From positions 527 through 38,732 of the forward strand of contig JAVHLK010000045.1 of assembly GCA_031082285.1 (NCBI GenBank): a stretch of DNA of 38,206 nucleotides, read 5' to 3'. A program made the translations under genes and the position numbers. Of the stretch, positions 3,736 to 21,360 are shown piece after piece. Under the pieces are notes generated by a model that was not told the DNA's origin, did no database searches, and saw only the letters and a list, made by a program, of their open reading frames with translations. The DNA is from Desulfomonilaceae bacterium (lineage in GTDB: Bacteria > Desulfobacterota > Desulfomonilia > Desulfomonilales > Desulfomonilaceae). How positions within the stretch are numbered: position 1 is the first letter of the stretch; each line of letters opens with the position of its first letter.

Positions 3736-4797
3736 GTGGTCGTGCGTACTCTGAAAACATGGGGCATCTGGGTGTTGTCGTGCATTCTCCTGTGCAGCTG
3801 CATAGGTCTCGTGCCGTCTCCCTTCAGACCTTCGCCGGGGCCGCAGAAGACGCCGCAAATAGAGGACCTTGCAGAGGCTTTCGATATTGTCTGCAGGAAC
3901 TTTCGAATAGGCCCCGGAGATCAGCTGAGGATTCTGTATCAAGCTCAATGGAATATCCCCGCGGGATCGTACAGACTCGACACTCTGGATCGAATACAGG
4001 TCAAGTTTCTTTTCGATCCCGAGTTGAACGAGGAGGTCACCATCGCTCCGGATGGGATCATCACGCTTCAAGGGATCGGCGACATACGGGCCGCGGGTCT
4101 CACGAGACAGGAGCTGGGGGATCGCATTGAAAAGAAGTTGCTCGAATCAAAGATATTCAGTGCCGACAAGATCGGTCAAGGTCTGGCAGGCTATCGGATC
4201 GTGACGGTCCATCTGGTGGAATTTTACGGCAAGGTGAACAAACTGATCGATGCGCTCAGAAGTCTCACCGGCGGGACTCAGCAAGGCGTTACGGTGAAGC
4301 CGGACGGCACGATAGACTTGCCGTTGCTCAAAGAGACCGTCCTGTGCGCGGGGCACACGATTTCAGAGGTTGAACAGACGGTCAACCGATTGTACAGAAG
4401 AGGCGTCCTGAAACATGTGGATGTCTCGATCGCCCTGGTGGAGGCCAATTCACGAAAGGTATACGTGCTCGGTGAGGTCCAATCGCCGGGTGCCTATGCA
4501 ATCGAGCAACCCATCACCGCGCTGCACGCCATTGCGCTCGCGGGCGGGCACAATGCGGATACCGCGGATCTCACCAGTGTCATCCTTGTGTCCAAAAACA
4601 TACATGGAAAGCCTATCGGTCGACGCCTGGACTTGAAACGAATACTTGATGTGGGAGACATGACCCCGGCAATATTGGTGAAACCCTATGATGTTATCTA
4701 CGTTCCCAAGACGTACATACGGGATGTTCGGGTCTTCATGGAACAGTACCTTACGACGGTCGCGGACGTGAACGCACTGGTGAAGGCGCTCAAGTAA
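3736..4797 (+). CDS. Wza-type polysaccharide export lipoprotein
   Basis: Periplasmic/outer-membrane polysaccharide export protein of the Wza/KpsD (OPX) family, expected to form the exit channel for capsule or exopolysaccharide. I prefer the GTG at 3736: GGAGGG lies 11 bases upstream, and it gives a compact signal peptide ending in the lipobox-like LCSC. The ATG at 3685 is the alternative start. After the lipidated Cys comes the Poly_export domain, with FRIGPGDQL and then VTIAPDGIITL. A second similar block follows (VTVKPDGTIDLPLL), then an SLBB-like domain with VYVLGEVQSPGAY and a hydrophobic AIALAGG stretch. The end reads PYDVIYVPK, usual for the family. At about 353 residues it is family length. 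No Wzc-type kinase or glycosyltransferase lies next to it, so the partner export genes are elsewhere. PqqD-like and S26 genes follow on the same strand. Confidence 0.82.
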   Translation: MVVRTLKTWGIWVLSCILLCSCIGLVPSPFRPSPGPQKTPQIEDLAEAFDIVCRNFRIGPGDQLRILYQAQWNIPAGSYRLDTLDRIQVKFLFDPELNEEVTIAPDGIITLQGIGDIRAAGLTRQELGDRIEKKLLESKIFSADKIGQGLAGYRIVTVHLVEFYGKVNKLIDALRSLTGGTQQGVTVKPDGTIDLPLLKETVLCAGHTISEVEQTVNRLYRRGVLKHVDVSIALVEANSRKVYVLGEVQSPGAYAIEQPITALHAIALAGGHNADTADLTSVILVSKNIHGKPIGRRLDLKRILDVGDMTPAILVKPYDVIYVPKTYIRDVRVFMEQYLTTVADVNALVKALK

Positions 4798-4909
4798 GAG
4801 GACCAAGAAAGCGTGGTGCGGCCGAAACTTGCGTGCCGAACCCGAGTGAGCTAATCTGATTGCCGATGGGAAATCATTGGGCTCCGTAGAGACGAAAGGC
4901 GCCGTATCC

Positions 4910-5191
4910 ATGCGCGGGAAGAGCAAACCGACGGCAAACCCGGATCTCATATTGCGAGAAGAGTTCGACGACTGGGCGATCCTGTTCGATCCCGACACCG
5001 GAGACGGGTACGGGCTCAATCCCGTGGGCGTGTTCGTCTGGAAGCGACTCGACGGTCGTCATTCCGAGAAAGATATTTTGGAGGAACTGATCCGCGCGTT
5101 TGACGATGTTCCCGAAGACGCGGAAGCTCACCTTTCCGAGTTCGTCAAGGACCTGGCCGGCCGAGGATACGTGGGCTACGAGGTTGAGTGA
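4910..5191 (+). CDS. PqqD-family protein (peptide-chaperone fold)
   Basis: A small PqqD-like protein of 93 residues. PqqD-fold proteins hold a substrate peptide for a radical SAM or similar modifying enzyme. The body matches the family: LFDPDTGDGYGLNPVGVFVWKRLDG is split by a turn, then the helix KDILEELIRAFDD, and a C-terminal winged-helix-like part ending in LAGRGYVGYE. The ATG at 4910 is chosen because GAAAGG lies about 10 bases upstream; a TTG at 4877 would add 11 residues. No radical SAM protein is adjacent. The S26 protease-like gene at 5516 is a common companion of stand-alone PqqD genes in polysaccharide or peptide-export loci, which I know from family context and cannot prove here. 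The precursor peptide is not visible. Confidence 0.75.
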   Translation: MRGKSKPTANPDLILREEFDDWAILFDPDTGDGYGLNPVGVFVWKRLDGRHSEKDILEELIRAFDDVPEDAEAHLSEFVKDLAGRGYVGYEVE

Positions 5192-5256
5192 ATGCCGGAT
5201 CCAGGCTTCCGCCGGGAGTATTTCCGGCCTCGGCCTTTGTCTGAAAGTCCTCTTCG

Positions 5257-5291
5257 TTCTCGTTCCCAGGCTCCGCCTGGGAATGCCTATC
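5257..5291. repeat. 35-bp hairpin repeat, copy 1
   Basis: A hairpin-forming element with arms TTCCCAGGC and GCCTGGGAA (5263-5283). The 35 bases are a perfect reverse complement of 24701-24735. A second small GC hairpin (CCGGGC/GCCCGG) follows at about 5294-5308. It occupies the 324-bp space 5192-5515, where I see no gene. It has the form of a dispersed REP-like intergenic repeat. Confidence 0.8.
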
Positions 5292-5515
5292 TTCCGGGCT
5301 CTGCCCGGCCTTTGACGCGGAAAACCGCTTCCGCGAGAGACTTTCATGGTCAGTTGTGAGCCCCGATCATGGCGGTTCGCCGGAAAGACGACGGGCTGTG
5401 GCACGATTATCATGCATTACTTCTTTTTGAGACGCTTTCTTCATCCCCCGGAAACAAGGCGCGCATTCAAACAGGATTTCCGTCATGAAATCACTGTCAT
5501 GAGACGTTATTCACC

Positions 5516-6217
5516 ATGACGCTTCCACCGGATATTAAGACGAGTCCCTCCGGCGAATCCCGCCCTGGAACTCCATACGCCGTCTGTACAGGCGTGAGCA
5601 TGTATCCCACACTGAAGGTCGCGGACGTCCTCACCATTAAACCGTGTCAGGGGAACGAGATCCGACCCGGCGATGTCGCGCTGTTCAGGGAGCCGAACTC
5701 GGGAGAACGTGTCGTACATCGAATCGTCACGATAGACCGCGGCCGAATCACGACCAGGGGAGACAACAACGATCGGGCTGATTCGTTCGTCGTGGGTGCC
5801 GGCGATCTGATAGGCAAGGTTGTCGCCGTGGGGCTGGGTGAACGTCGAACTCGGGTTCACGGCGGATTCGTCGGGCGAGTTGTGGGACGGCTGAATTGGA
5901 CGCGCCGCGACGTAATGCGGCTGTTGTCGAAAGCGCTCCACGGACCTTATCGCATGCTCGCGCGCCGGCGCGTGTTCACAAGGCTGTTGTCACGCAGGCT
6001 GAAGCCTCGGATAGTGTGTTACAACCGGCCCCGCGGCGTCGAACTCCGTCTGTTCGTCGGAAACAGACCGATCGGAGTACGTCGCGCCGCAAGGCGGACG
6101 TGGGAAATCGATCGTCCTTTTCGTGTGTTCATTGATGAATCCAAATTACCCGATGCGGCGGAACGGGCGAGCACCGACACGACGAAGCACCATGGTAAGG
6201 GCGGTTCGGGGCATTAG
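5516..6217 (+). CDS. S26-family signal-peptidase-I-like protein (SipW/S26B type)
   Basis: Serine peptidase-like protein of 233 residues. The GVSMYPTL motif supplies the nucleophile Ser, and VVHRIV supplies a His in the place where the bacterial enzyme has Lys; Ser-His pairing is typical of the S26B (SipW/archaeal) branch. A GDVALF strand and TRGDNN with a conserved Asp complete the catalytic fold by about residue 90. The C-terminal about 120 residues are Arg-rich and carry no recognisable domain. No clear membrane anchor is visible, which is unusual for a true signal peptidase, so it may process a dedicated substrate or be inactive. It follows the PqqD-like gene, and its stop at 6215-6217 is one base from the end of the convergent UPF0261 gene. 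Confidence 0.72.
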   Translation: MTLPPDIKTSPSGESRPGTPYAVCTGVSMYPTLKVADVLTIKPCQGNEIRPGDVALFREPNSGERVVHRIVTIDRGRITTRGDNNDRADSFVVGAGDLIGKVVAVGLGERRTRVHGGFVGRVVGRLNWTRRDVMRLLSKALHGPYRMLARRRVFTRLLSRRLKPRIVCYNRPRGVELRLFVGNRPIGVRRAARRTWEIDRPFRVFIDESKLPDAAERASTDTTKHHGKGGSGH

Positions 6218-6218
6218 A

Positions 6219-7445
6219 TTACGCCTGCCCGCGTACCTTCATGAAAGCGTGCAGCTCGGCCACCACCACTTTTGCAAACTCGTCGTCATTGATGTGAGCG
6301 TCGATTTCGAGCACCTCGATGCCGTGATTCAGGCGTGACTTCAATTCACTCACGAATTCCCCGTTGATGTGGGGATCGAACAAAGGGCCGCCGGCCGCAT
6401 CCGCTTCCGACCATCCGCGCAGAGGCACGACAAATTTCACGGGACCTTTGGCGCGGTTGAGTTTTTCCGAAATGGTTCCGGCCAGCGTGAGTACATCATG
6501 GACGCTGGTGCGGACGCCGGAGCGAAAGTCGTACCAGAACACCTTTCTGTCTTTCAGGTGCGGAGGCTTGGTTTCCTCGGAGTTGAACTCCAGGACTATG
6601 CAGTCCAGGCCGCCTGGAACAATCACCTGGGGAATGCCGCGGGCTCCTGCCGATTCCAGTCTCCCCGGCCCGATACCACCGCAATAGCCCCCGTACATGG
6701 AGTCGGCAAATTCGTGGAGCGCGAAGTCGAGCACCCCAGTGATCAGGCCTTGGTCGATCAGGTCCTCCATAGCCATCCCGCCCGTACCGTTGGCGTGAAA
6801 GGGCGCCACATCATAGCCCGATTCTTCGAGCAACTTCTTGACCTTCATCGCGCCCTGCGTGATGAACCCGAAAGAGGTGAGACCGACGATCGGCTTCTCG
6901 GGGAGTATCTTTCCCGCTCGCTGCGCCATCCCCGCCACTGCACCTGCCGCATTGGCGAGGATCCGCTTGGTGACCGCATTGAGACCGAGTATGTCGGTAA
7001 CCGAGTGCATCACGGTAATGTCTTTGGTTCCCATGAGTGTGCTCATATCTCGAGACGCGACCGTCGATACCATGAGCTTCGGTACGCCGAGGGGAAGTCT
7101 TCGCATGATCCCCATGCCTATGTGTGTGCCGGTCCCGCCGCCCACCGAAATGATGGCGGAAAGTCTTCCGCTGTGGTACATCTCTTCGACGATGGTCGCC
7201 CCCCCCTCGATGACCGTTTCCACCGCAAGTCTCCTATCCTTGACATCGAGGAGCTTCTCGACGGATGAACCCGCCCGCTCTGCAACGATCTCCCGGGGCA
7301 CGTCGGGCGTCACCGTAGGCGCATTGAGCGTTCCCACATCAATGAGCACGGTTTCGCAATTATCCCCTTCGATAAGCCTTTTCAAGTACCCGACTTCTTC
7401 ACCTTTTGTGTCGAGAGTGGCAACGACGGCAACGGTTGGAATCAT
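6219..7445 (-). CDS. UPF0261 / Tm-1-like ATP-binding protein (paralogue A)
   Basis: Family of unknown bacterial function; the fold is known from tomato Tm-1, whose N-terminal domain has an ATP-binding UPF0261 fold. The product has 408 residues. Visible family blocks are VVATLDTKG at the start, the glycine-rich ISVGGGTGTHIG, LPLGVPKLMVST, a central TSFGFITQGA (start of the second domain) and QVIVPGGLD. The start at 7445 is secure, with GGAGG 7 bases upstream; the open frame extends to 7490 without a ribosome site. It lies 75 bases downstream of the LysR gene on the same strand, so the two probably form one transcript divergent from the phenol-type operon. A clear paralogue sits in that operon at 16867. 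I infer a role in aromatic acid or CoA-ester metabolism, but no reaction can be read from the sequence. Confidence 0.85.
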   Translation of the reverse strand: MIPTVAVVATLDTKGEEVGYLKRLIEGDNCETVLIDVGTLNAPTVTPDVPREIVAERAGSSVEKLLDVKDRRLAVETVIEGGATIVEEMYHSGRLSAIISVGGGTGTHIGMGIMRRLPLGVPKLMVSTVASRDMSTLMGTKDITVMHSVTDILGLNAVTKRILANAAGAVAGMAQRAGKILPEKPIVGLTSFGFITQGAMKVKKLLEESGYDVAPFHANGTGGMAMEDLIDQGLITGVLDFALHEFADSMYGGYCGGIGPGRLESAGARGIPQVIVPGGLDCIVLEFNSEETKPPHLKDRKVFWYDFRSGVRTSVHDVLTLAGTISEKLNRAKGPVKFVVPLRGWSEADAAGGPLFDPHINGEFVSELKSRLNHGIEVLEIDAHINDDEFAKVVVAELHAFMKVRGQA

Positions 7446-7520
7446 CACGTGACCTCCGGAGTAGTACACCTTGCGAAGATGTCTCAGCATCTCGGTTGGA
7501 AAAGGGATTTCACTTTGGGA

Positions 7521-8450
7521 TCAGAAATCTGCGGTGATTTCCGAAACGGGTTCCCGGATCCTGAATCTCGGACGCTTCTGTTTTGCGATCTTGAGAAAAT
7601 ACCTCATGGGCATCGACATGGGCTCGCCCCGGCGCGTGACGATATCCGCATCAAACGAGATGTCCCCTTCGATGAGATCGATCTTTCTCACGGTTCCCTT
7701 GTCGAGTTCGGATTCGATCTCGTGAGACAATATAAACGAAATTCCCATCCTGCGCTCGATATAAGCGAGGATGAAGCTGAGACTTTCGGATTCGATCACC
7801 ACGGACGGCGTGACCCCGTAATCACCAAGTTTCTTGAGGATTGCGTTTCGAGAGCCCGATCCCTGCTCTCTGATAATCAAGGGTTCGCCGTCCAGGGATG
7901 CGATGCCGATCGCCCGGGATTGCGCCAATGCGTGGTCGGGACTCGCAATGAGGACAAACTGTGCCTTGGCGAAGGGCACGGCCCGCAACGTGGCGTCATA
8001 CTCCGTTCGAGCGACCACGACGACGTCTTCCTTTCTCGTCCGCAGCCTGTTCAACAGATCTGCGGAGTTTCCCTCGCTGAAACGAACCTGCACGAGAGGG
8101 AACTTCCGCTGAAAGTGTGAGATGAGGTCGGGCATGATGGTCCGTGCATATGCCTTGGTGGTGCCTATCCAAAGGCGTTCGGCGGATGCCTTGCGGGCTT
8201 TGTGAAGAAGGCTGATGATCTGTTCGATTCGGCTGAAAACCCTGTTACTCACCAGAAATATCGCTTCACCCGTCGCAGTCAACCGGTACTGATTGGAATC
8301 ACGGTAGAAGAGTTTGACGCCGCACTCCTCCTCAAAACTCCTGAGTTGTTGCGACACTGCCGGTTGAGAGATGTGAAGGAAGGCCGCGGCTTTGGTCATA
8401 CTCATGAACTTGCAGAAATAGTGAAAGGTTTCCAGATGCCTGAGGTTCAT
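7521..8450 (-). CDS. LysR-family transcriptional regulator
   Basis: LysR-type regulator of 309 residues, the usual family length. The N-terminal winged helix-turn-helix (residues 1-60) is canonical: LRHLETFHYFC, then TKAAAFLHISQPAVSQQL as recognition helix region, then LFYRDSN. The rest is the periplasmic-binding-protein-like effector domain, with the usual ERLWIGTTKAY start of its first strand. Such proteins usually bind a pathway intermediate and activate a divergent operon while repressing themselves. Here the divergent operon begins with ubiX-like at 9081, after a 630-bp space containing palindromes at 8499-8539, so I infer that it controls the aryl-phosphate operon and the UPF0261 gene behind it. 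The effector is unknown, perhaps the phenol or the aromatic acid. Confidence 0.9.
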   Translation of the reverse strand: MNLRHLETFHYFCKFMSMTKAAAFLHISQPAVSQQLRSFEEECGVKLFYRDSNQYRLTATGEAIFLVSNRVFSRIEQIISLLHKARKASAERLWIGTTKAYARTIMPDLISHFQRKFPLVQVRFSEGNSADLLNRLRTRKEDVVVVARTEYDATLRAVPFAKAQFVLIASPDHALAQSRAIGIASLDGEPLIIREQGSGSRNAILKKLGDYGVTPSVVIESESLSFILAYIERRMGISFILSHEIESELDKGTVRKIDLIEGDISFDADIVTRRGEPMSMPMRYFLKIAKQKRPRFRIREPVSEITADF

Positions 8451-9080: not shown

Positions 9081-9644
9081 GTGAAACGTATCGTTGTGGG
9101 CATAAGTGGTGCAAGTGGTACGGTGTACGGTGTACGCATCCTTGAGATCCTCCGTCAGACACGGGATATCGAGGTCCACCTCATCGTCAGCAGAGGAGCT
9201 CGCGTCACCATGGAGTACGAGAATTCCATCGACTGCGATGCGGTAGAAAAGCTTGCCGACCACGTTCATTCACCCGACCATCTCGCTGCCCCCATATCGA
9301 GCGGTTCCTTCCGAACCGCCGGGATGATCGTAGCGCCCTGTTCCATGAAAAGCCTTTCCATGATCGCCAACTCGATCGACGACAACCTCCTTGTGCGTGC
9401 GGCCGATGTCACGTTGAAAGAGCGACGCAAACTTGTGCTGATAACGAGGGAAACACCGCTCCACCTCGGCCATCTCCGGCACATGGTTGCAGTCACGGAA
9501 ATGGGCGGTGTTATTCTGCCTCCTGTACCGTCCTTCTATCATCGGCCACGCACAATCCAGGACATAGTCGATCAGACCGTGGGAAAGGCCTTGGATCAAT
9601 TCGACATCCCTCACACGCTCTTCGATCGCTGGGGAGGTGGATGA
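9081..9644 (+). CDS. ubiX: UbiX-family flavin prenyltransferase
   Basis: UbiX/Pad1 family; these join dimethylallyl phosphate to FMN to make prenylated FMN, the cofactor of UbiD decarboxylases. The 187-residue length is typical. Visible blocks are GISGASGTVYGVRIL (FMN phosphate site), APCSMKSLSMIA, the ADVTLKERRKLVL helix, ITRETPLHLGHL, and PPVPSFYHRP followed by IDQT-like helix sequence. Start is GTG at 9081, with AGGGAAAGG 8-16 bases upstream and the protein beginning exactly at the family start. The next gene overlaps by 4 bases (ATGA). As first gene of the operon that also holds a UbiD protein at 13600, it most likely makes the cofactor for that enzyme. In phenol-degrading Thauera a UbiX-like gene lies in the same kind of cluster. 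Confidence 0.9.
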   Translation: MKRIVVGISGASGTVYGVRILEILRQTRDIEVHLIVSRGARVTMEYENSIDCDAVEKLADHVHSPDHLAAPISSGSFRTAGMIVAPCSMKSLSMIANSIDDNLLVRAADVTLKERRKLVLITRETPLHLGHLRHMVAVTEMGGVILPPVPSFYHRPRTIQDIVDQTVGKALDQFDIPHTLFDRWGGG

Positions 9645-10153
9645 CCAAGACCCGGTTTGAACAAACGGCGATGTCGTTCATGGACGGCCTCACGACAATG
9701 ACCTTGGCGACATGCAGCCAAGGGATCCCTTGGGCCGCCGCGGTCTACTACGCACGGCAAGGTTTGGACTTGATTTTCTTCTCATCGCCGGCGTCCAGGC
9801 ATTCGGAGATTCTCTCAACGAACCCTCGTGCCGCGGCGACGATTCACGGCGAGTATGATAGGTGGCAGGATATCAAAGGACTGCAAATGGAAGGAACCGT
9901 CGAGCAGATACGTTCCACGTGGGCGCTGGCAAGGGCCACGGCCGCCTATCTCAAGCGATATCCATTCGTCCGACAATTCTTGGCGGACCCCGGCTCCGTA
10001 TCCACTCTCGCAGCCGCTAAGATGACCAAGGCGGCTCTATATATATTCAGACCCGAACGTATTTTTTATCTCAGCAATGAGGAAGGGTTCGGCAACAGAT
10101 GGAAGCTCGAAATCAGGGACGGAAAGTCCGTCGGCGACCCGGAGCGAGCTTGA
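9641..10153 (+). CDS. PNPOx-like (pyridoxamine 5'-phosphate oxidase family) flavin-binding protein
   Basis: Split-barrel flavoprotein family, 170 residues. MTLATCSQGIPWAAAVYYA, split by a turn, is the first beta hairpin; LIFFSSPASRHSEIL with the typical S..RH.E and the following NPRAAATI, then LQMEGTVEQI, are the standard core of the FMN- or F420-binding family. The C-terminal part carries an added helical stretch and ends in FRPERIFYLSNEEGFG. The start codon lies inside the ubiX-like stop (ATGA), implying translational coupling and matched expression. Family members range from true oxidases to flavin-binding proteins with no known reaction. A link to prenyl-FMN handling or a flavin reductase role is my inference from coupling alone. 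Confidence 0.8.
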   Translation: MTKTRFEQTAMSFMDGLTTMTLATCSQGIPWAAAVYYARQGLDLIFFSSPASRHSEILSTNPRAAATIHGEYDRWQDIKGLQMEGTVEQIRSTWALARATAAYLKRYPFVRQFLADPGSVSTLAAAKMTKAALYIFRPERIFYLSNEEGFGNRWKLEIRDGKSVGDPERA

Positions 10154-12260: not shown

Positions 12261-12306
12261 CATAGGAGTGAATGCTTACAGCCCCGAAGAAGGTGAGGTT
12301 CGAACA

Positions 12307-13386
12307 ATGGATATGTCCCGGTATGTGCTCCCGTTTGAGGAGTGCGACCTCAGCATGGTGAATCGAGTCGGCGGCAAGTGCGCAAGCCTCGGCGAGCTGC
12401 TCAAGGCACGTATCCCGGTGCCGCCGGGATTCGCGGTTACGACCGAGGCTTTTGACCTTTTTATGGAAGAGAACGGCCTCGTCGAGAAGGTGCAGGCTCG
12501 ACTCGAAGGACTGGACGAAAGCATGGTCGAGGAGACCGAAAGGGCTTCCCAGGAGATTCGAGCCTGGATCGAAGCCGGGACCATATCCGAACCGTTGGAA
12601 GACATGATCGCGGACAGTTACCGCCTCCTCTCACGCCGGACACGCACTCCGGCCCAACCCGTCGCGGTGAGATCCTCCGCAACTGCGGAGGATCTGCCCG
12701 ATGCAAGCTTCGCGGGTCAACAGGACACGTTCTTGTGGGTCCGGGGAGTCGATGATTTGCTCGATCGAACGAAGCGGTGCTGGTCAAGCCTCTTCACACC
12801 GAGGGCCATTGCCTACCGGGCACGGATGGGCTTCGAACATTCCCAGGTGAAGCTCAGCGTGGGGGTACAGAAAATGGTACGTTCCTTCGCTGCAGGAGTG
12901 ATGTTTACGCTCAATCCATCCACCGGCGACCCGGCGACGGTTGTGATCGACTCCAACTGGGGGTACGGCGAAAGCGTCGTGGCCGGGGAAGTCACTCCGG
13001 ATCAGTTCCACGTCAACAAGATCTCGATGGATGTGACCAAGAAAACCGTTTCGGACAAGCAAATCTACTACACGACCGATCCCGAGACCGATGAGGTGAT
13101 CAGGATCGAAGTCGATGCCGAGCGAAGGCATTTACAGAGTCTCTTGGACTCGGAAATTCTGATGCTTGGGGAACTGGCGAATCGAATTGAAAAGCATTAC
13201 GGAAAACACATGGACATCGAGTGGGCCACAGAGAAATCTCTGCCGTACAAGGGTGAAATATTTATCGTGCAAAGCCGTCCGGAGACGGTTTGGAGTCGGA
13301 AGAAGCGTGAACCAATTGAAAAGCCGAGAGCCAGTGCGGTCGACCATATCGTGGCCGGGCTGATAAAGGGCAAGAAGGTCAGATAG
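12307..13386 (+). CDS. ppsB: Phenylphosphate synthase beta subunit-like protein (PPDK/PEP-synthase ATP-grasp domain)
   Basis: The 359-residue (about 40 kDa) product equals the N-terminal nucleotide-binding half of PEP synthase and pyruvate phosphate dikinase on its own polypeptide, the arrangement known for phenylphosphate synthase. Seen in order: GGKCASLGEL near residue 20, VPPGFAVTTEAF, VAVRSSATAEDLPDASFAGQ (ATP-grasp glycine and Arg loop), ARMGFEH, GVMFTLNPSTGDP, and the C-terminal DIEWATE with FIVQSRPETVW. In the known system this subunit uses ATP to phosphorylate the catalytic His of PpsA, releasing AMP and phosphate. The ATG at 12307 has AGGTGAGG 8 bases upstream; the GTG at 12268 lies next to the hairpin and is less likely. 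It follows ppsA-like directly. Confidence 0.85.
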   Translation: MDMSRYVLPFEECDLSMVNRVGGKCASLGELLKARIPVPPGFAVTTEAFDLFMEENGLVEKVQARLEGLDESMVEETERASQEIRAWIEAGTISEPLEDMIADSYRLLSRRTRTPAQPVAVRSSATAEDLPDASFAGQQDTFLWVRGVDDLLDRTKRCWSSLFTPRAIAYRARMGFEHSQVKLSVGVQKMVRSFAAGVMFTLNPSTGDPATVVIDSNWGYGESVVAGEVTPDQFHVNKISMDVTKKTVSDKQIYYTTDPETDEVIRIEVDAERRHLQSLLDSEILMLGELANRIEKHYGKHMDIEWATEKSLPYKGEIFIVQSRPETVWSRKKREPIEKPRASAVDHIVAGLIKGKKVR

Positions 13387-13599
13387 TACAGTGGGGGTCG
13401 GATCTGCTCTTGGCTCACCGTACGTAACCCGGCAAGGCGAAGTGTGAGTCAAGAGAAGACTTTACCCCTGCACGGCGCGGTGAGAGCGGAGGAAACGTTC
13501 CAAATCCCCGTCCGTATCCGTTGGAGAGCCGGTGACGCACGCCGTGCGAGGACCGGGTGCTCACGTGCCGAAGAACAAGGAACAGAAGGAGAGTTCTAC

Positions 13600-15006
13600 A
13601 TGAAAGACATGAGAGATTTTGTCGCCCAAGGCGAAGAGAAAGGCCTATGCAAGAGGATCACCGCGGAGGTGGACTGGAACCTGGAACTTTCGCATATCGC
13701 CAAGCTGAACGAAGAAGCCTGCGGCCCGGCACTACTGTTTGAGAACGTCAAGGACTACGACACGCCGGTCATTACCAGCGTGTGCACGACGACGGAACGT
13801 CTTGCATTAATTATGGGACAACCGCTCGAATCAACCCTGGTCGACCTCTACGTAGCCTGGGCGAGACTTGGCGAAAATTTGATCCCGCCGACCTTTGTGG
13901 ACAAGGCGAACGCGCCCTGCAAGGAAAACATTGTTACCGGGGACGACATAGACCTCTACAAGTTCCCGGTTCCCCATTGGTATCCGTTGGACGGCGGACG
14001 TTATATCGGCACCGCGCACTTCTTCATTTCAAAGGATCCGGAAACGGGTTGGGTGAACCTGGGTACGTACCGGGCTCAACTGCTGGGCAAGGACAAGATC
14101 GGGACTCAGTTCATCAAGGGCAAGCACGCAGACATCATGCTCAAGAAATATCAGGCAATGGGCAAGCCAATGCCCGTGGCTTCGATCATCGGATGCGATC
14201 CCTTACTGTTCGTCCTCGGCGCCGCCCGGGTGTCCGCTTTTGTTTCCGAGTATGACGTGGCGGGTGCGCTCAGAGGAACACCGGTCGAAGTTGTTCAGGG
14301 TGAAACGGTTGACCTGCCCATTCCGGCCCATGCGGAGATCGTGATCGAAGGCGAGGTGGATGCCGACAAGTTCATGGAAGAGGGTCCCTTCGGCGAGTAC
14401 ACGGGGTACTACTCGGGCGTGGGCACCGACCCGCGGAACTTTGTGGATGTAAAGTGCGTCACGTATCGGAACAATCCCATCCTGTGGGGGACGACGGTGG
14501 GCCGGGCTGTGACCGACACCCACATGACCATGGCGCTTTCCTACGGCGCGACGCTCTGGCAGCAGCTCTTGGCCATGAAAATTCCGGGGCTGAAAGCGGT
14601 TTACTGTCCGCCCGAGGGTTCGGGACGATTCCTCGCCATCATCTCCATGAAACAGATGTATCCGGGACATGCGGACCAGGTGCTTACCGCGGCCATCTCC
14701 ACCGAAATGGGTGCTTATGGACTGAAGACGGTGATCGTCGTGGACGAAGACATCGACCCCTGGGACATTCCGCGGGTCATGTATGCACTGAGTTTCAGGT
14801 TCCAGCCCAACCGGTGCCAGGTCATCAAACGGGGCAGGTCCACGCCGTTGGATCCCTCTCTGCCGATCGACGCCAGGGACATCACGGGCAGACTCCTGCT
14901 GGACGCCACCATACCCTACGACTGGAAGCACAAGCCGATTCCCATCGAACTGGATTCGGATATGGTAGCCAGAGTCAAGGCAAGGTGGTCGGAACTGGGG
15001 CTCTAG
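13600..15006 (+). CDS. UbiD-family prenyl-FMN-dependent (de)carboxylase, probable aryl-phosphate carboxylase
   Basis: UbiD family, 468 residues. Family residues are visible: Arg158 in NLGTYRAQ, and the pair Glu261 and Glu266 in EEGPFGEYTGYY, matching by position and 5-residue spacing the Arg-Glu-Glu catalytic set of fungal Fdc1. DPRNF and the later DEDIDPWD and RTRW-like region are usual for the family. These enzymes need prenylated FMN plus a metal and K+. The ATG at 13600 has AAGGAG about 11 bases upstream; the frame is open back to 13444 but reads as Arg-rich non-coding leader. Between pps genes and an acid:CoA ligase, the natural role is carboxylation of phenylphosphate to 4-hydroxybenzoate. 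The Thauera carboxylase has two UbiD-like subunits plus two small ones; only one is here. Confidence 0.87.
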   Translation: MKDMRDFVAQGEEKGLCKRITAEVDWNLELSHIAKLNEEACGPALLFENVKDYDTPVITSVCTTTERLALIMGQPLESTLVDLYVAWARLGENLIPPTFVDKANAPCKENIVTGDDIDLYKFPVPHWYPLDGGRYIGTAHFFISKDPETGWVNLGTYRAQLLGKDKIGTQFIKGKHADIMLKKYQAMGKPMPVASIIGCDPLLFVLGAARVSAFVSEYDVAGALRGTPVEVVQGETVDLPIPAHAEIVIEGEVDADKFMEEGPFGEYTGYYSGVGTDPRNFVDVKCVTYRNNPILWGTTVGRAVTDTHMTMALSYGATLWQQLLAMKIPGLKAVYCPPEGSGRFLAIISMKQMYPGHADQVLTAAISTEMGAYGLKTVIVVDEDIDPWDIPRVMYALSFRFQPNRCQVIKRGRSTPLDPSLPIDARDITGRLLLDATIPYDWKHKPIPIELDSDMVARVKARWSELGL

Positions 15007-15058
15007 GACTCTAAGACATCAGCTTGGTGATGTATTCGAAACGCTCGGTAGCGACCCG

Positions 15059-15160
15059 TCCCGCGCTCTGCGCGGGATGCCGGGCGAAAATCGCAACCTC
15101 CCGAGGAATATCCCGCGGAACGCGGGAAGGCCGGCGCTGCCAAAGCGGGAAGTTGACCGA
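15059..15160. repeat. GC-rich hairpin repeat upstream of the ligase gene, copy 1
   Basis: Two TCCCGCG/CGCGGGA hairpins (15059-15077 and 15111-15127) are followed by a 19-base stretch (15128-15146) identical to 38044-38062, where the same hairpin also precedes it. Similarity continues weakly through GTTGACC. The element lies inside the open frame that extends upstream of the ligase, which argues against a start before 15179. Confidence 0.75.
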
Positions 15161-15205
15161 GGATTCGACACCGCATTAATGAAACGCTGCACCAAGGAGG
15201 CCTCA

Positions 15206-16867
15206 TTGAAACCGATCCGATATAAGAAGGAAATGGTGGATGAATTCATCAAGAAAGGCTATTGGACCCAGGAAACCTTCTACGATTTCTGGGATCGAAA
15301 CGCCCGTGAATATGGAGACAGAGAAGCGCTGGTCGATTCCAAGTACCGGTTGACTTGGGCAGAGGCAAAACGTCTCGTCGATGCCATGGCGATTTCATGG
15401 GTTGAGATGGGAATCCCGAAACATTCCCGCATCATCATCCAGGCGCCGAACAGTGTGTATGGGTTCCTGGCCAGGATAGCGTGTGAACGAGCAGGCCTCA
15501 TTTCCTTGACGGTGTACCCGTACCTTAGGCAGAGAGAACTGGAATACATGGTGGAAAGGACAGAGGCATCGGCCGTCATAATTCTGAACATTTACAACAA
15601 ATTCAATTACCTGGAAATGTATACGGAACTCCAGAAGCAGTTTCCGCATTTGAAGAACATATTTCTGTTCGACGACGAAGTGCCGGCCGGCGCACCCGAG
15701 GGGACGTTCTCGCTCACCCGCATCGTGAACGAGCGAGCCGAAAAGCCTGTGGACGAATCGGTGCTTGCGGAAAGAAGGCTCGATCCCATTTGGGACGTTG
15801 CCTTGCTCACCACGACATCGGGAACGACGGGAATCCCCAAGCTTGTTGAATGGCCCACCGCTCCCCGCGTGTGCACGTCAAAGGGTCGAGTGGACATCTG
15901 GAATCTGAACAAGGACGACATCACCATGGCAATCGCTCCCCATGCCGGAGGCGCAGCCGGAACGCTCACCTATTTCGCGGCACCGTTGGCGGGGGCCAAG
16001 ACGGTCATGTTGGAGGAGTTTTCCCCGGAGGGAGCCCTGGCTCTTATCGAAAAGGAAAAGGCAACCGCGATCGGCGTCGTACCCACGCACTTGGTGCGGA
16101 TGCTGGACGCGGACGCGTCCAAGTACGACCTGAGCTCGCTTCGGTTCATCCGTTCAGCCGGGGGCTATCTTTCTCCCCAGGTAGCCGAAGAGGCGGAACA
16201 AGCCTTCGGCGCTTCCATCACCAGCGATCTTGGCACCCAGGACATGGGGTCGGTTTCCGGATGCAGAGTTGAGGATTCCAAGGACCTGCGCCGCAGAACC
16301 GTCGGGCGTATGCTCCCGGGAAACCAGGTTCGTCTCATGAGCGAGGACGGCAAGACCGAAGTTCCCGAGGGGGAGCCGGGAGTCCTTTATTTCCGCGGCC
16401 CGCATGCACCCGCGGGGTACTATCGCGATGAGGAACTTACCTCAACGGTGTTCGATCCCGACGGCTGGACCACTACCGGTGATATAGTTAAGTTTGACCA
16501 AGGCTGCTTGTGGATACTGGGACGAGCCAAGGACATGATCATTCGCGGCGGTCAGAATATCTACCCGGCGGAGATCGAAGGCCTTCTGAACGATCATCCC
16601 AAAGTGGCATCGGTCGCGGTCGTGGGATATCCGGACCGGGAAATGGGTGAACGAGCCTGCGCCTACGTGATTCCAAAGGGCGGACAGGAATTCACCTTCC
16701 GGGAAATGGTGGACTATCTGAAGTCCAGGAATATCGCGATGTTCAAGCTTCCGGAGCGCCTCGAGGTGGTGTCGGAATTTCCCACGGTGGGCGATTCCGG
16801 AAAGGTCAACAAGGAGACGCTGAAAAAGGACATCAGGGAGCGGTTGGCCGCGGAGGGCAAGTCCTGA
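15206..16867 (+). CDS. AMP-forming acid:CoA ligase (aromatic acid type)
   Basis: ANL-superfamily adenylate-forming ligase of 553 residues. Motifs in order: TTTSGTTGIPK (phosphate loop, about residue 202-212), LVRMLDAD and the FIRSAGGYLS region, SDLGTQDMG, TTGDIVKFDQ with the ribose-binding Asp, GRAKDMIIRGGQNIYPAEIE, and catalytic Lys near 532 in SGKVNK. It converts a carboxylic acid, CoA and ATP to the acyl-CoA, AMP and PPi. A TTG start at 15206 is chosen because AAGGAGG ends 5 bases before it and the repeat element lies upstream; an ATG at 15179 is the alternative. Placed after the UbiD gene, 4-hydroxybenzoate (or the relative made by carboxylation) is the likely substrate. Its stop overlaps the next start (TGATG). 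Confidence 0.85.
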   Translation: MKPIRYKKEMVDEFIKKGYWTQETFYDFWDRNAREYGDREALVDSKYRLTWAEAKRLVDAMAISWVEMGIPKHSRIIIQAPNSVYGFLARIACERAGLISLTVYPYLRQRELEYMVERTEASAVIILNIYNKFNYLEMYTELQKQFPHLKNIFLFDDEVPAGAPEGTFSLTRIVNERAEKPVDESVLAERRLDPIWDVALLTTTSGTTGIPKLVEWPTAPRVCTSKGRVDIWNLNKDDITMAIAPHAGGAAGTLTYFAAPLAGAKTVMLEEFSPEGALALIEKEKATAIGVVPTHLVRMLDADASKYDLSSLRFIRSAGGYLSPQVAEEAEQAFGASITSDLGTQDMGSVSGCRVEDSKDLRRRTVGRMLPGNQVRLMSEDGKTEVPEGEPGVLYFRGPHAPAGYYRDEELTSTVFDPDGWTTTGDIVKFDQGCLWILGRAKDMIIRGGQNIYPAEIEGLLNDHPKVASVAVVGYPDREMGERACAYVIPKGGQEFTFREMVDYLKSRNIAMFKLPERLEVVSEFPTVGDSGKVNKETLKKDIRERLAAEGKS

Positions 16868-18093
16868 TGGAACGTGCGATTCTCCTCATATCAACCCTCG
16901 ACACCAAAGGCCCGGAAACCCTGTTCCTGCGCGATCGTATCCGGGCGAGGGGAGGTATACCCCTTGTCCTGGATCTCAGCATGTCAGCGGAGTGCGAAGG
17001 ATCGGATATAACGCCGACGGAAGTCGCGCACGCGGCCGGCACGAACATCGACGAGATCAGAGCTTCCCGGGAACGAAAGAAAATAACGCGTCTGATGATA
17101 GAAGGTGCCCAGAAACTGGCCCGGGAACTCCTGGATGCCGGCCGTCTAGCCGCAGTCATCGGGTTGGGCGGATCGACCGGCAGCCTTATGGCTACGGATG
17201 TGATGAGGGCCCTTCCGTTCGGGGTTCCCAAGCTGATGGTTTCATCCACCGCGGCCTTGCCGGGATTGTCGACTCGTTACATAGGAACCGGGGATATTGC
17301 CGTCTTTCACACGGTGATCGAGATTACGGGACTTTCTCTGCCTCTGTGCAACGTCTTGGATCGCGCCGCGGCCGCGGTGGCCGGGATGGCTGAGGTGCCG
17401 CCGCTGACGGTGGAATCCGCCCGCAAGGACGGACGGCCCCTGGTGGCAATGTCCATGTTCGGCCCGACCGAACGGTGCGCGCATCACGTTCACACGGCTC
17501 TCGATCGGCTGGGCTATCAGACCATAGGCTTCTCTGCCGCCGGGGTGTGCGACCGCGCCATGGAAGACATGATCGCACTACGTTTTTTCGACGGAGTTGT
17601 GGACCTGGCTCCCGGAGGGGTGGGCGAGGAGGTTCTCGGCGGCATGCGCGCGGCCGGTCCGAACCGCCTTACCAGCGCGGGGAAACTGGGCATTCCTCAG
17701 GTTGTGGCGCCGGGAGGCGTGAACACGACCAATCCGAGAAAATCGCGCTATACGCCGGAGCATCACGAACGGAGAAAGTACGAACTCGATGAGCTTCGCA
17801 CCTTCCTCAGAGTTTCGGACGAAGAGATGAGACGGATAGCCGAGGTGTACGCGGAAAAGCTTGGGCAAGCGCTGGGCCCGGTGATCTTCTTGTTTCCGAC
17901 CAAAGGGTGGTCCGCGATGGACCCTCCGACGGGACACATGTTCGACCCGGACCAGGATCGAATTTTTCTGGATATCCTGAGAGCGCGGGTGGGTTCGAAA
18001 ATCGTAATCCGCGAAGTCGACGCCAATCTCGACGACGAGGTATTTGCGGCAGAGGTTGAAAAGGCCTGCGTCGAGATCTTCCCCACGCCGTAA
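16867..18093 (+). CDS. UPF0261 / Tm-1-like ATP-binding protein (paralogue B)
   Basis: The second member of this family in the window, 408 residues. It shares with the copy at 6219 the opening STLDTKG, the glycine loop GLGGSTGSL, LPFGVPKLMVS, a central MSMFGPTERCAHHV block, QVVAPGGVN, and GWSAMD near the end. The start ATG overlaps the ligase stop by one base, so the two are translationally coupled. Its position between the ligase and ppsC-like genes puts it inside the aryl-phosphate operon. Biochemical function is not established for bacterial members; the two-domain nucleotide-binding fold suggests an ATP- or CoA-linked reaction or a regulatory role. It differs clearly from paralogue A in the C-terminal half, so it is not a recent duplicate. 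Confidence 0.85.
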   Translation: MERAILLISTLDTKGPETLFLRDRIRARGGIPLVLDLSMSAECEGSDITPTEVAHAAGTNIDEIRASRERKKITRLMIEGAQKLARELLDAGRLAAVIGLGGSTGSLMATDVMRALPFGVPKLMVSSTAALPGLSTRYIGTGDIAVFHTVIEITGLSLPLCNVLDRAAAAVAGMAEVPPLTVESARKDGRPLVAMSMFGPTERCAHHVHTALDRLGYQTIGFSAAGVCDRAMEDMIALRFFDGVVDLAPGGVGEEVLGGMRAAGPNRLTSAGKLGIPQVVAPGGVNTTNPRKSRYTPEHHERRKYELDELRTFLRVSDEEMRRIAEVYAEKLGQALGPVIFLFPTKGWSAMDPPTGHMFDPDQDRIFLDILRARVGSKIVIREVDANLDDEVFAAEVEKACVEIFPTP

Positions 18094-18170: not shown

Positions 18171-18812
18171 ATGATCATAAAGAACTGGATGCTGCCCCAG
18201 CAATTCACCATCTCGAGTGATGCGCTTGCCGTTGAGGCCGTATTGCTGATCCGCGAGCACAACCTTAAGATGCTTCCCGTGGTGGATGAAGGCCGCTTGC
18301 GGGGCGTGGTTCATCGCCGCGACTTGAGCGAGGCGGCTCAATGCGTTACCGGCAGCGGCGATTTGTGTGAGATGAACTACTTTTGCAACAAGCTCAAGGT
18401 CAAGGACATCATGGTCCGGATGCCGATCACCGTCAATCTCTACGATTCCGTGGAAGATACCCTGATGAAGGGACGGGAAATGATGATGAGCACATTTCCC
18501 GTCATGGACGGAGACAAGGTCGTCGGTGTGGTGTCCGACCGTGAGATTTTCGTGACTCTGTTCAAGTTGCTCGAAGCCGGTAGTCATCGTACCAGGATCA
18601 CATTGAGCGGTGTGAGATTGGAGGGCGGGACGTTGTCCAAGATCCTTGATGTGGTCGACGCGTGTGAATGCACCCCCAGTGCGATCTTCACCGTGCCCGA
18701 CAAGGAGAACGGGGACGTGAGAGTCGTCTTGAGAGCGGAGTGCAAGGATCCCGAGGCGCTCAAGAAAGCTTTGGAAGAACAAGGCTACAATATCATGGAG
18801 TACGGGTCTTAG
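18171..18812 (+). CDS. ppsC: Phenylphosphate synthase gamma subunit-like CBS-domain protein
   Basis: A 213-residue (about 24 kDa) protein with a tandem CBS pair, matching in size and type the third subunit of phenylphosphate synthase, which stimulates the PpsA/PpsB reaction in Thauera. CBS1 is residues 1-60 (MLPVVDEGRLRGVVHRRDL), CBS2 about 75-135 (DIMVRMPITVN, TFPVMDGDKVVGVVSDREIF). The last about 75 residues are an ACT-like fold with VRVVLRAECKDPEALKKAL. The ATG at 18171 has GGAGG 6 bases upstream; the frame is open back to 18093 but lacks a ribosome site. CBS pairs usually bind adenosine nucleotides, so it may sense AMP/ATP. It is separated from ppsA and ppsB by three genes but is on the same strand and probably in the same transcript. 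Confidence 0.78.
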   Translation: MIIKNWMLPQQFTISSDALAVEAVLLIREHNLKMLPVVDEGRLRGVVHRRDLSEAAQCVTGSGDLCEMNYFCNKLKVKDIMVRMPITVNLYDSVEDTLMKGREMMMSTFPVMDGDKVVGVVSDREIFVTLFKLLEAGSHRTRITLSGVRLEGGTLSKILDVVDACECTPSAIFTVPDKENGDVRVVLRAECKDPEALKKALEEQGYNIMEYGS

Positions 18813-19599: not shown

Positions 19600-21360
19600 A
19601 TGAAAAGGCTGCCGCTGATCGTGGCGTGTCTCTGTTTGCCGTGTTTTTCCTCGAGCGCCGTTGCGTGGGATTTCAGTCTCAAGGGTGAGAATATTCTCCG
19701 CTACCGATATTGGGCGCGAACGGGAAACGACGACATCTTCGGACGGATGGACACAAACGTAAACCTCGGAGTGAACCATCTCAAGACCCATCCTTCGCCT
19801 TCAAGGGACAATGGTCCTCGCCCCGACTTCGGAGTGCTGGCCGGTGAGAATCGGTTCGGCACGGACATGAACTTCACGGACCTTCAAGTCACGCTCTACC
19901 CGAAGATCAGGATAAACCCCGCCATCACTATGGAAAGCTCCATCAACCTCACGTCTCTGGGGCTTCACTCAGGGGGCAGGCCGTTGGGGAATTGGGAAAT
20001 CCCCGGAGAGGTGAATCAACTCACGGTACCCATGAGTAATCGACCTGCGGCAATCAATGTCCCAAATACCATGGTCACCATGCAATGGTGGAAGATGAAG
20101 GTCGATCTGCCCATCTTTTCCGTAACGGTGGGGTATCGGCCGAGCGGATTGGGGATCGGTTTATGGAAGAGCCCGTGCCAGCGGTCCTCAGCCTCGATTG
20201 CAACAACGACCGCGTATGGGCCGCTTGGAATCGGTTTCGGCACCTATTTCGGCCGTGCCGCAACCAATTGGAACCAGTACCCAAGGGATTCGGGGACAAA
20301 CGCCACGTACCGCAGAGACGACGACCGGAATTATCTGGGGGGAGTGTATGGGGACCTGAAGTACTCGTGCGGTCCCCTTACGCTGGAATTCAGCTCGACC
20401 GCGTACAAGGATATCTCATCCCAGCACGTTGACGGTCGGAATTTCACCACCGGAGCGCCGGGGGACTTGACACAGGTGGTAAGGCCTCGCCCCGATCGGC
20501 TGGTCTATGAACTCACGCTCGCTCTGAAGTACTTAAACGGTTGGTTCTTTTTCAACGGTGAGATAGACCAATACTCCCACTATCGTTCCGGGTCGGGCAC
20601 GACCGTGGTACGTGCGGGAAGACGCATACAGGCACTGGGCACCGACAATATAGCGTGGCTGTACGGGATTGAGACAGGGGTTGTGTTGAGTCCGGCCATC
20701 GTTACGTTGTCGTACGCCCGATCCACCGGCGACGACCCGTCCACCAGGAAGGACGACGAAGACTCGGCCCGCGCCTCGACCGGCCTCAACAACTGCGTCA
20801 TGCGGAACTGGGCGTTTCTCATGTACCACATGTACGGCTCCGGTACGGGGTGGAATGCAAGCGGCGACGGGCAGCCGGTGAATCTGCATCACGCAGGCCT
20901 GAGACTGGACTACGCGGTGGCGGCCAACCTCAACCTCTGGGCGGTCTACTCCCGGGCATGGAGAGATCAGCCGAACGCATTTGTCCTCGGTGGAGATTAT
21001 TCGCACACCGTGGCGCGTTTCACCAACAACACCATCGCACAGCAGCAGGGTCTGGCGGGATTCGACCCACCGGTTCCGGGACTTAGAGCCGTTCCCGATC
21101 ATGCGAATGAAGTCGGCTGGGAAGTGGACCTGGGGTTCGATTGGAAGCTCCTGGAGAATTTCACCTTGAGGAATGTGTTCGCACTCTGGAAGCCGGGGAA
21201 CTGGTGGTCCTACGCGTGCCCCAATACGGTTGCCGTGTACAAGAGAAACGGCGGAACCGTTCCGCAGTCTCCACCCGACGCGGTGGGCGCGGTCGTGGGC
21301 GCGGGAAGGGATATCGATCCCCTGTTCGCTTTTCAGACCGAGTTGAGGACCGAATTCTGA
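19600..21360 (+). CDS. Outer-membrane beta-barrel (porin-like) protein
   Basis: 586 residues with a clear signal peptide (MKRLPLIVACLCLPCFSSSAVAW, split at about residue 22), then a long series of alternating aromatic strands (for example ILRYRYWAR, YGIETGVVLS, LRLDYAVAANLNLWAVYSRAW, WEVDLGFDWKLLENFTLRNVFALW) and a C-terminal Phe (TELRTEF), the usual signal for BAM insertion. I do not recognise a named family. The early GRMDTNVNLGVNH and GRPLGNW stretches are those of large barrel proteins seen in deltaproteobacteria. The position after the catabolic operon makes aromatic-compound or ion uptake a possible role, but this is only context. It has its own promoter. Confidence 0.75.
   Translation: MKRLPLIVACLCLPCFSSSAVAWDFSLKGENILRYRYWARTGNDDIFGRMDTNVNLGVNHLKTHPSPSRDNGPRPDFGVLAGENRFGTDMNFTDLQVTLYPKIRINPAITMESSINLTSLGLHSGGRPLGNWEIPGEVNQLTVPMSNRPAAINVPNTMVTMQWWKMKVDLPIFSVTVGYRPSGLGIGLWKSPCQRSSASIATTTAYGPLGIGFGTYFGRAATNWNQYPRDSGTNATYRRDDDRNYLGGVYGDLKYSCGPLTLEFSSTAYKDISSQHVDGRNFTTGAPGDLTQVVRPRPDRLVYELTLALKYLNGWFFFNGEIDQYSHYRSGSGTTVVRAGRRIQALGTDNIAWLYGIETGVVLSPAIVTLSYARSTGDDPSTRKDDEDSARASTGLNNCVMRNWAFLMYHMYGSGTGWNASGDGQPVNLHHAGLRLDYAVAANLNLWAVYSRAWRDQPNAFVLGGDYSHTVARFTNNTIAQQQGLAGFDPPVPGLRAVPDHANEVGWEVDLGFDWKLLENFTLRNVFALWKPGNWWSYACPNTVAVYKRNGGTVPQSPPDAVGAVVGAGRDIDPLFAFQTELRTEF

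Follow-up and report, generated by a model that had tools for sequence, protein, structure and literature searches.

Background on phenylphosphate carboxylation and the UPF0261 family

The phenylphosphate carboxylase of Thauera is composed of the UbiD-like subunits PpcA and PpcB, the small subunit PpcC, and PpcD, a HAD-type subunit that removes the phosphate. The tomato resistance protein Tm-1 acts through binding another protein. The kinase MarK is reportedly the subject of Hall et al. 2025 (J Biol Chem 301:110606). In Novosphingobium aromaticivorans, the catabolism of acetovanillone starts with MarK, a single-component kinase (PMC13101465). PDB entry 9MPY is titled as Saro_1862, a UPF0261 protein of N. 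aromaticivorans, with acetovanillone bound. Saro_1862 is almost surely MarK, given the same organism, the same ligand, and a structural co-author. The view of an earlier note on this DNA, that the UPF0261 family has no established reaction, is outdated by the 9MPY structure and the report of the MarK kinase.

The phenol-cluster proteins of Desulfatiglans anilini reached far higher levels on phenol than on benzoate; the same study did not find ppc gamma, detected no carboxylase activity in extracts, and suggested a different carboxylation mechanism (PMC6114531). A study of aniline degradation describes 2 UbiD subunits of D. anilini that carboxylated phenylphosphoamidate but not phenylphosphate (PMC7500099). 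Both papers leave standing the question of how sulfate reducers carboxylate phenylphosphate without the gamma and delta subunits of Thauera (PMC6114531, PMC7500099).

Organization of the operon

The window, that is to say, the whole stretch of 38,206 nucleotides analyzed here, is part of a genome designated G000 and carries the following genes:

6219..7490, minus strand: second UPF0261 protein UPF2, clade g2, 423 aa; PF06792/PF23189
7521..8450, minus strand: LysR-type regulator, divergent from the operon and conserved with UPF2; PF00126/PF03466
9081..9644, plus strand: flavin prenyltransferase UbiX, source of the UbiD cofactor; over cut-off for NF004685 and TIGR00421
9641..10153, plus strand: PNPOx-family flavoprotein; PF01243
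10373..12205, plus strand: phenylphosphate synthase subunit, PpsA-like, with the catalytic His568; NF006152 over cut-off
12268..13386, plus strand: PpsB-like ATP-grasp subunit of phenylphosphate synthase; PF01326, 5e-117
13444..15006, plus strand: carboxylase of the UbiD type (phenylphosphate carboxylase beta type), encoded by the sole ubiD gene in this cluster; TIGR02724 over cut-off
15077..16867, plus strand: AMP-forming aromatic acid:CoA ligase (ACS); PF00501/PF13193
16867..18093, plus strand: UPF0261 protein UPF1, clade g1, 408 aa; complete ORF with ATG start
18171..18812, plus strand: PpsC-like protein with 2 CBS domains; PF00571; probable start at 18171 behind GGAGGT

The operon has the order ubiX–PNPOx–ppsA–ppsB–ubiD–ligase–UPF0261–ppsC (window, Desulfomonile-like MAG). 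The setting of UPF1 given in the earlier note, with the ligase upstream, the PpsC-like gene downstream, and a TGATG start/stop overlap, was confirmed on the sequence, in which the ATG of UPF1 and the TGA of the ligase share one base. UPF1 matched PF06792 with 168.9 bits (1.4e-49) and PF23189 with 213 bits (4.2e-63), against a curated cut-off of 27 for each, and was over the cut-off of NCBIfam NF002674.

The His, ATP-grasp, and CBS subunits of a PpsAB(C) phenylphosphate synthase lie together in this one operon, and the catalytic His of PpsA is conserved in all 85 sequences compared. Because His568 is present in the window PpsA, the phenylphosphate synthase looks intact, and a UPF0261 protein acting as the sole kinase beside a dead PpsA was rejected on the same residue. 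The longest ORF of the PpsC-like gene, which is 65–73% conserved in near relatives, opens at a second stop/start overlap (TAATG) at 18093. Its start is most likely 18171, behind GGAGGT, rather than 18093, so the coupling of this gene to UPF1 is unclear.

Several features around the operon are recorded here. The PNPOx gene (9641–10153) overlaps the end of ubiX and is found at the operon head only in near relatives (46–61%). The UPF2 gene (6219–7490) and the lysR gene (7521–8450), both on the minus strand and divergent from the operon, are kept as a pair in relatives. An ORF of 586 aa (19600–21360, plus strand) 3′ of the operon had no Pfam or NCBIfam match. A candidate 4-hydroxybenzoyl-CoA reductase (924 bits, under cut-off) is encoded elsewhere in the genome.

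Conservation of UPF0261 genes in phenol-degradation clusters

UPF0261 genes are near-constant in the phenol-degradation gene clusters of anaerobic bacteria. In a survey of 395 genomes of the phylum, with PpsA called by NF006152 at E values up to 1e-60, UPF0261 was found in 89 genomes, PpsA in 69, and both in 60. UPF0261 thus occurred in 60 of the 69 PpsA genomes versus 29 of the 326 others (Fisher p about 8e-39, a value inflated by the relatedness of the genomes), and the 2 genes often lie within a few kb of each other. The neighborhood check that the earlier note had proposed, for a tendency to adjoin aromatic genes, was therefore strongly positive, in co-occurrence with PpsA as well as in physical linkage.

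In 17 loci from genome contigs, the ligase–UPF0261 pair was kept wherever both genes were covered, down to 54% identity, and PpsA, PpsB, and UbiD were kept alongside where the contig extended to them. Among 37 g1 genes lying directly 3′ of the same ligase, 18 share bases with it and another 12 begin no more than 10 bp away. The overlap of the ligase and UPF1 is therefore no accident. The earlier note held that UPF1 must be made with the pathway: membership in the pathway is supported by the survey, whereas the “must” was drawn from the overlap and its conservation, and the nearest evidence for expression with the pathway is the phenol-induced cluster of D. anilini.

Comparison of ubiD and the ligase (window 13444–16867) with loci L004–L020 revealed 2 kinds of these genes, which are exchanged together among near relatives and have either about 91% or about 50–64% identity to the window; ppsA, ppsB, and the UPF0261 gene have about 70–80%. 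The pattern is that of a module swap within the operon.

Fold and clades of the UPF0261 proteins

The AlphaFold model of UPF1 (pLDDT 85.9) has the two-domain Tm-1/Saro_1862 fold and matches both Tm-1 and 9MPY. Comparison with Tm-1 and Saro_1862 showed that (i) UPF1 resembles the N-terminal region of Tm-1 (PDB 3WRW, 3WRX, and 3WRY) in fold (Z up to 37.1) and core motifs, whereas Tm-1, unlike UPF1, is fused to a TBST domain; (ii) UPF1 and Saro_1862 share the UPF0261 fold and domain pair (VIA Z 29.5) and core residues, and both belong to aromatic catabolism via phosphorylated phenols; (iii) the 2 proteins are only 29–31% identical and belong to different clades, Saro_1862 being 47% identical to L123_8876; and (iv) MarK operates in the absence of PpsAB, alongside a biotin-dependent carboxylase, whereas UPF1 accompanies PpsAB and UbiD. 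A role for the classical partner TBST, as a separate protein beside UPF1, was rejected, because in a search of 60 genomes PF09370 was missing from that of the window and from all but one of 46 PpsA-bearing genomes.

Trees of 90 UPF0261 proteins, the second of which also included Saro_1862 and Tm-1 (FastTree), resolved 3 sets: g1 with UPF1, g2 with UPF2, and a mixed g3 with Saro_1862 and Tm-1. The g1 set is a separate clade (99*), and Saro_1862 groups with L123_8876. The g1 genes are almost confined to Pps clusters; in one part of 32 rows every member stands directly behind the ligase, and the other members are mostly behind ubiD. The g2 genes are often beside ppsB, often following it, or beside lysR. 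Many clusters, that of the window among them, hold one g1 and one g2 gene per locus, and the 2 clades may have 2 roles in the pathway or form a hetero-oligomer.

The core residues that Saro_1862, Tm-1, and all clades share (D12, K14, GG101-102, P117/G119/P121/K122, S126, D143, R267, R302, R315, P344, G347, and S349) are retained in UPF1, which is the core-residue pattern of a MarK-type aryl kinase. In g1, position 229 is D in all but one member and Gly in the other clades, position 251 is Gly or Ala instead of Glu, position 254 is mostly Glu instead of Asp, position 223 is mostly S instead of His, a two-residue insertion lies near 131, and the His of the FHxxGxGG motif is lost in 33 of 45 members. 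Since g1 differs from all other clades at residues of the acceptor half (C-terminal half), g1 is not simply a MarK.

The UPF0261 genes of L123 (8876–11500) and L124 (2199–10600) are accompanied by genes for a biotin carboxylase, a biotinylated carboxyltransferase, an HMG-CoA-synthase-like protein, a thiolase, and a CoA ligase; the L123 enzyme names were read from the sequences rather than by profile search. Both loci have no ppsAB, and their UPF0261 genes are mostly of clades other than g1. These loci are candidates for an anaerobic MarK-type pathway for aryl ketones, and the neighborhood in L123, whose UPF0261 protein is the closest to Saro_1862 in the set, fits a kinase acting on aryl ketones. 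AcvF was rejected as a UPF0261 phosphatase; acvABCDEF matches hpeHICBAD, and HpeD is NagD-like (PMC9618137).

The main rival to the reading that we favor (described below) is that UPF1 is a second aryl kinase, single-component and MarK-type, that uses ATP to phosphorylate phenol, another phenol, 4-hydroxybenzoate, or the CoA ester of 4-hydroxybenzoate; phenol would then be phosphorylated at the cost of one ATP, compared with 2 ATP equivalents for the Pps dikinase. The kinship in fold and sequence with acetovanillone-bound Saro_1862, the report of MarK as a single-component enzyme opening a pathway (PMC13101465), and the retained core residues argue for such a kinase, as do L123 and L124, where the UPF0261 gene lies with carboxylase, ligase, and thiolase genes and the missing ppsAB indicate that the family can supply the sole kinase. 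However, the operon has an intact dikinase of its own, g1 stands outside the Saro_1862 clade and has mostly lost the FHxxGxGG His, and a kinase leaves without explanation why g1 accompanies a single ubiD and is dropped with PpcABCD. We regard this alternative as rather unlikely.

Exchange of g1 with the PpcABCD carboxylase

Locus maps revealed 2 kinds of clusters, one having a single ubiD without PpcC and PpcD, and the other a Thauera-type set of 3 ubiD genes, PpcC, and 1 or 2 PpcD-like HAD genes. Every untruncated Pps cluster with a single ubiD carried the g1 gene (28 of 28), versus 2 of 21 PpcC/PpcD clusters (p 1.1e-11), 4 single-ubiD loci without g1 having been left out as truncated (short contigs or contigs cut near the expected place). 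In a tree of 44 PpsA proteins, the cluster kind switches about 7 times; in 7 independent pairs, g1 changed in the direction opposite to PpcC/PpcD in 6 and in the same direction in none (sign test p 0.031).

The window belongs to the first kind. PpcC (TIGR02725) had no match in the window's genome, and PpcD (TIGR02726) had one KdsC-like match (5e-39) below a cut-off that none of the 395 genomes reach; neither gene is in the window cluster. Most genomes do encode KdsC-like HAD proteins, which could act in place of PpcD. Compared with PpcABCD of Thauera aromatica, the window shares the place in the pathway, PpsAB, UbiX, and a PpcB-type UbiD, and differs in having one UbiD rather than 2 or 3, a genome without PpcC, and a cluster without PpcC and PpcD. 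UPF1 has no homology to PpcA, PpcC, or PpcD of Thauera.

The ligase is not the cause of this distribution, because g1 is present in each of the 3 clusters in which a single ubiD occurs and this ligase is missing (L082, L104, and L114) and absent from all 4 PpcABCD clusters with it (L176, L177, L186, and L192). The g1 gene tracks the carboxylation module, not the ligase, and these loci do not support a step linked with the ligase, or with CoA as the earlier note suggested. A post-ligase action of UPF1, with the aromatic acid or acyl-CoA as its substrate, for example by readying a ring substituent for 4-hydroxybenzoyl-CoA reductase, would fit the order ligase–UPF–HcrB–HcrC–HcrA in L085, L086, L095, L099, L101, and L103, as well as the pairwise distances of g1, which correlate with those of the ligase at r 0.77. 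Many g1 clusters, the window's included, have no Hcr genes nearby, and together with the 7 loci above this makes a post-ligase role the most improbable of the alternatives considered.

Pairwise distances of g1 correlate with those of PpsA at r 0.53, and tight co-evolution of UbiD and UPF0261, sought by the same distances, was not found (g1 versus UbiD, r 0.07). In some genomes a g1 gene coexists with PpcABCD (L093 and L179; also L194 and L182, where g1 is beside PpsAB). Replacement of PpsAB by UPF0261 in the PpcABCD genomes G263 and G327, in which little or no PpsA was seen at the cut-off used, was rejected, because divergent ppsAB genes are present there (L182 and L183).

The exchange also bears on whether UPF1 could be a non-catalytic, ATP- and ligand-sensing accessory that serves the Pps/UbiD/ligase assembly as a regulator, as a chaperone, or by channelling substrate. 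Tm-1 works by protein binding, g1 and g2 share a locus in many clusters including that of the window, and the g1 distances follow the ligase and PpsA, all of which would suit an accessory. Against this, core residues are kept across the whole clade, a family member binds a phenol and is reported as an enzyme, and the exchange with PpcA/C/D calls for a specific step; an accessory role therefore appears improbable.

A putative role in handling the aryl phosphate

The g1 proteins have an aryl-kinase fold, occur although their operon encodes an aryl dikinase already, and are present precisely where PpcA/C/D are missing. On these grounds we favor, tentatively and at somewhat short of an even chance, the reading that UPF1 and g1 proteins are aryl-phosphate-handling partners of the lone UbiD that replace PpcA/C/D, the reaction itself being putative. 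PpsA and PpsB would phosphorylate phenol or a closely related compound, and UPF1 would stand in for the missing carboxylase subunits beside one UbiD and UbiX. UPF1 would bind the resulting aryl phosphate by means of the same fold with which MarK binds phenols and phosphorylates them, remove or transfer the phosphate, and hand the phenolate to UbiD, which would carboxylate it to the 4-hydroxy acid for activation by the co-translated ligase. The operon, its conservation, the exchange of g1 with PpcA/C/D, and the independence of g1 from the ligase are observed; we infer the aryl-phosphate binding, the phosphoryl chemistry, and the contact with UbiD. Recovery of ATP from phenylphosphate by the reverse kinase reaction is too unfavorable and was rejected.

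The family member with a bound phenol, acetovanillone, supports the aryl-phosphate reading, and the failure of the UbiD pair on phenylphosphate (PMC7500099) is expected if a component had been left out. Of the roles suggested in the earlier note, a check on the aryl-phosphate intermediate is the half that we retain, and an ATP-dependent role also fits the family. Five points stand against the aryl-phosphate reading: (i) the g1 distances follow the ligase and PpsA, not UbiD, though the 2 ubiD kinds are exchanged freely; (ii) some genomes have both g1 and PpcABCD; (iii) the sole characterized relative is a kinase, not a phosphatase; (iv) the aniline cluster of D. anilini also includes a UPF0261 gene, although the in vitro carboxylation of phenylphosphoamidate proceeded in the absence of its product (PMC7500099); and (v) the KdsC-like HAD proteins of most genomes could fill in for PpcD.

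A more specific proposal, which we put forward with greater reserve, is that g1 and one UbiD form an unrecognized minimal phenylphosphate carboxylase, in which a protein of aryl-kinase fold has come to remove the phosphate as partner to a prenyl-flavin carboxylase, has been swapped several times for PpcA/C/D, and is the component missing from the failed D. anilini assays. The survey points to one protein present precisely where the gamma and delta subunits are missing, and this protein is therefore a strong candidate, open to testing, for the part that is lacking. Such a role would give a second biochemical anchor, beside MarK, for the large UPF0261 family, which extends over bacteria, archaea, fungi, and plants and includes the tomato resistance gene Tm-1.

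UPF0261 genes in the clusters of Desulfatiglans anilini

All 6 published D. anilini RT-PCR primers (for ppsA, ppsB, and ppcB) match locus L165 exactly, and the genome that carries it (G214) therefore appears to be D. anilini or nearly so. Its phenol cluster has the order PaaK–RR–PpsB–PpsA–HcrA–HcrC–HcrB–UbiX–UPF0261–ligase–UbiD (tags H567DRAFT_02049–02059), by which H567DRAFT_02057 would be the UPF0261 gene; this gene lies 3 bp from the ligase. The phe cluster (PMC6114531) has the gene set of the window and differs in order, with Hcr genes inside it and PpsC elsewhere in D. anilini. The excerpted texts of PMC6114531 and PMC7500099 contain no discussion of the UPF0261 genes of the phenol and aniline clusters. 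The aniline cluster of D. anilini corresponds, judging by gene order, to L202, in which a UPF0261 gene (4443–5642), flanked by the PasB-like gene and the ligase gene, occupies the position of tag 03869.
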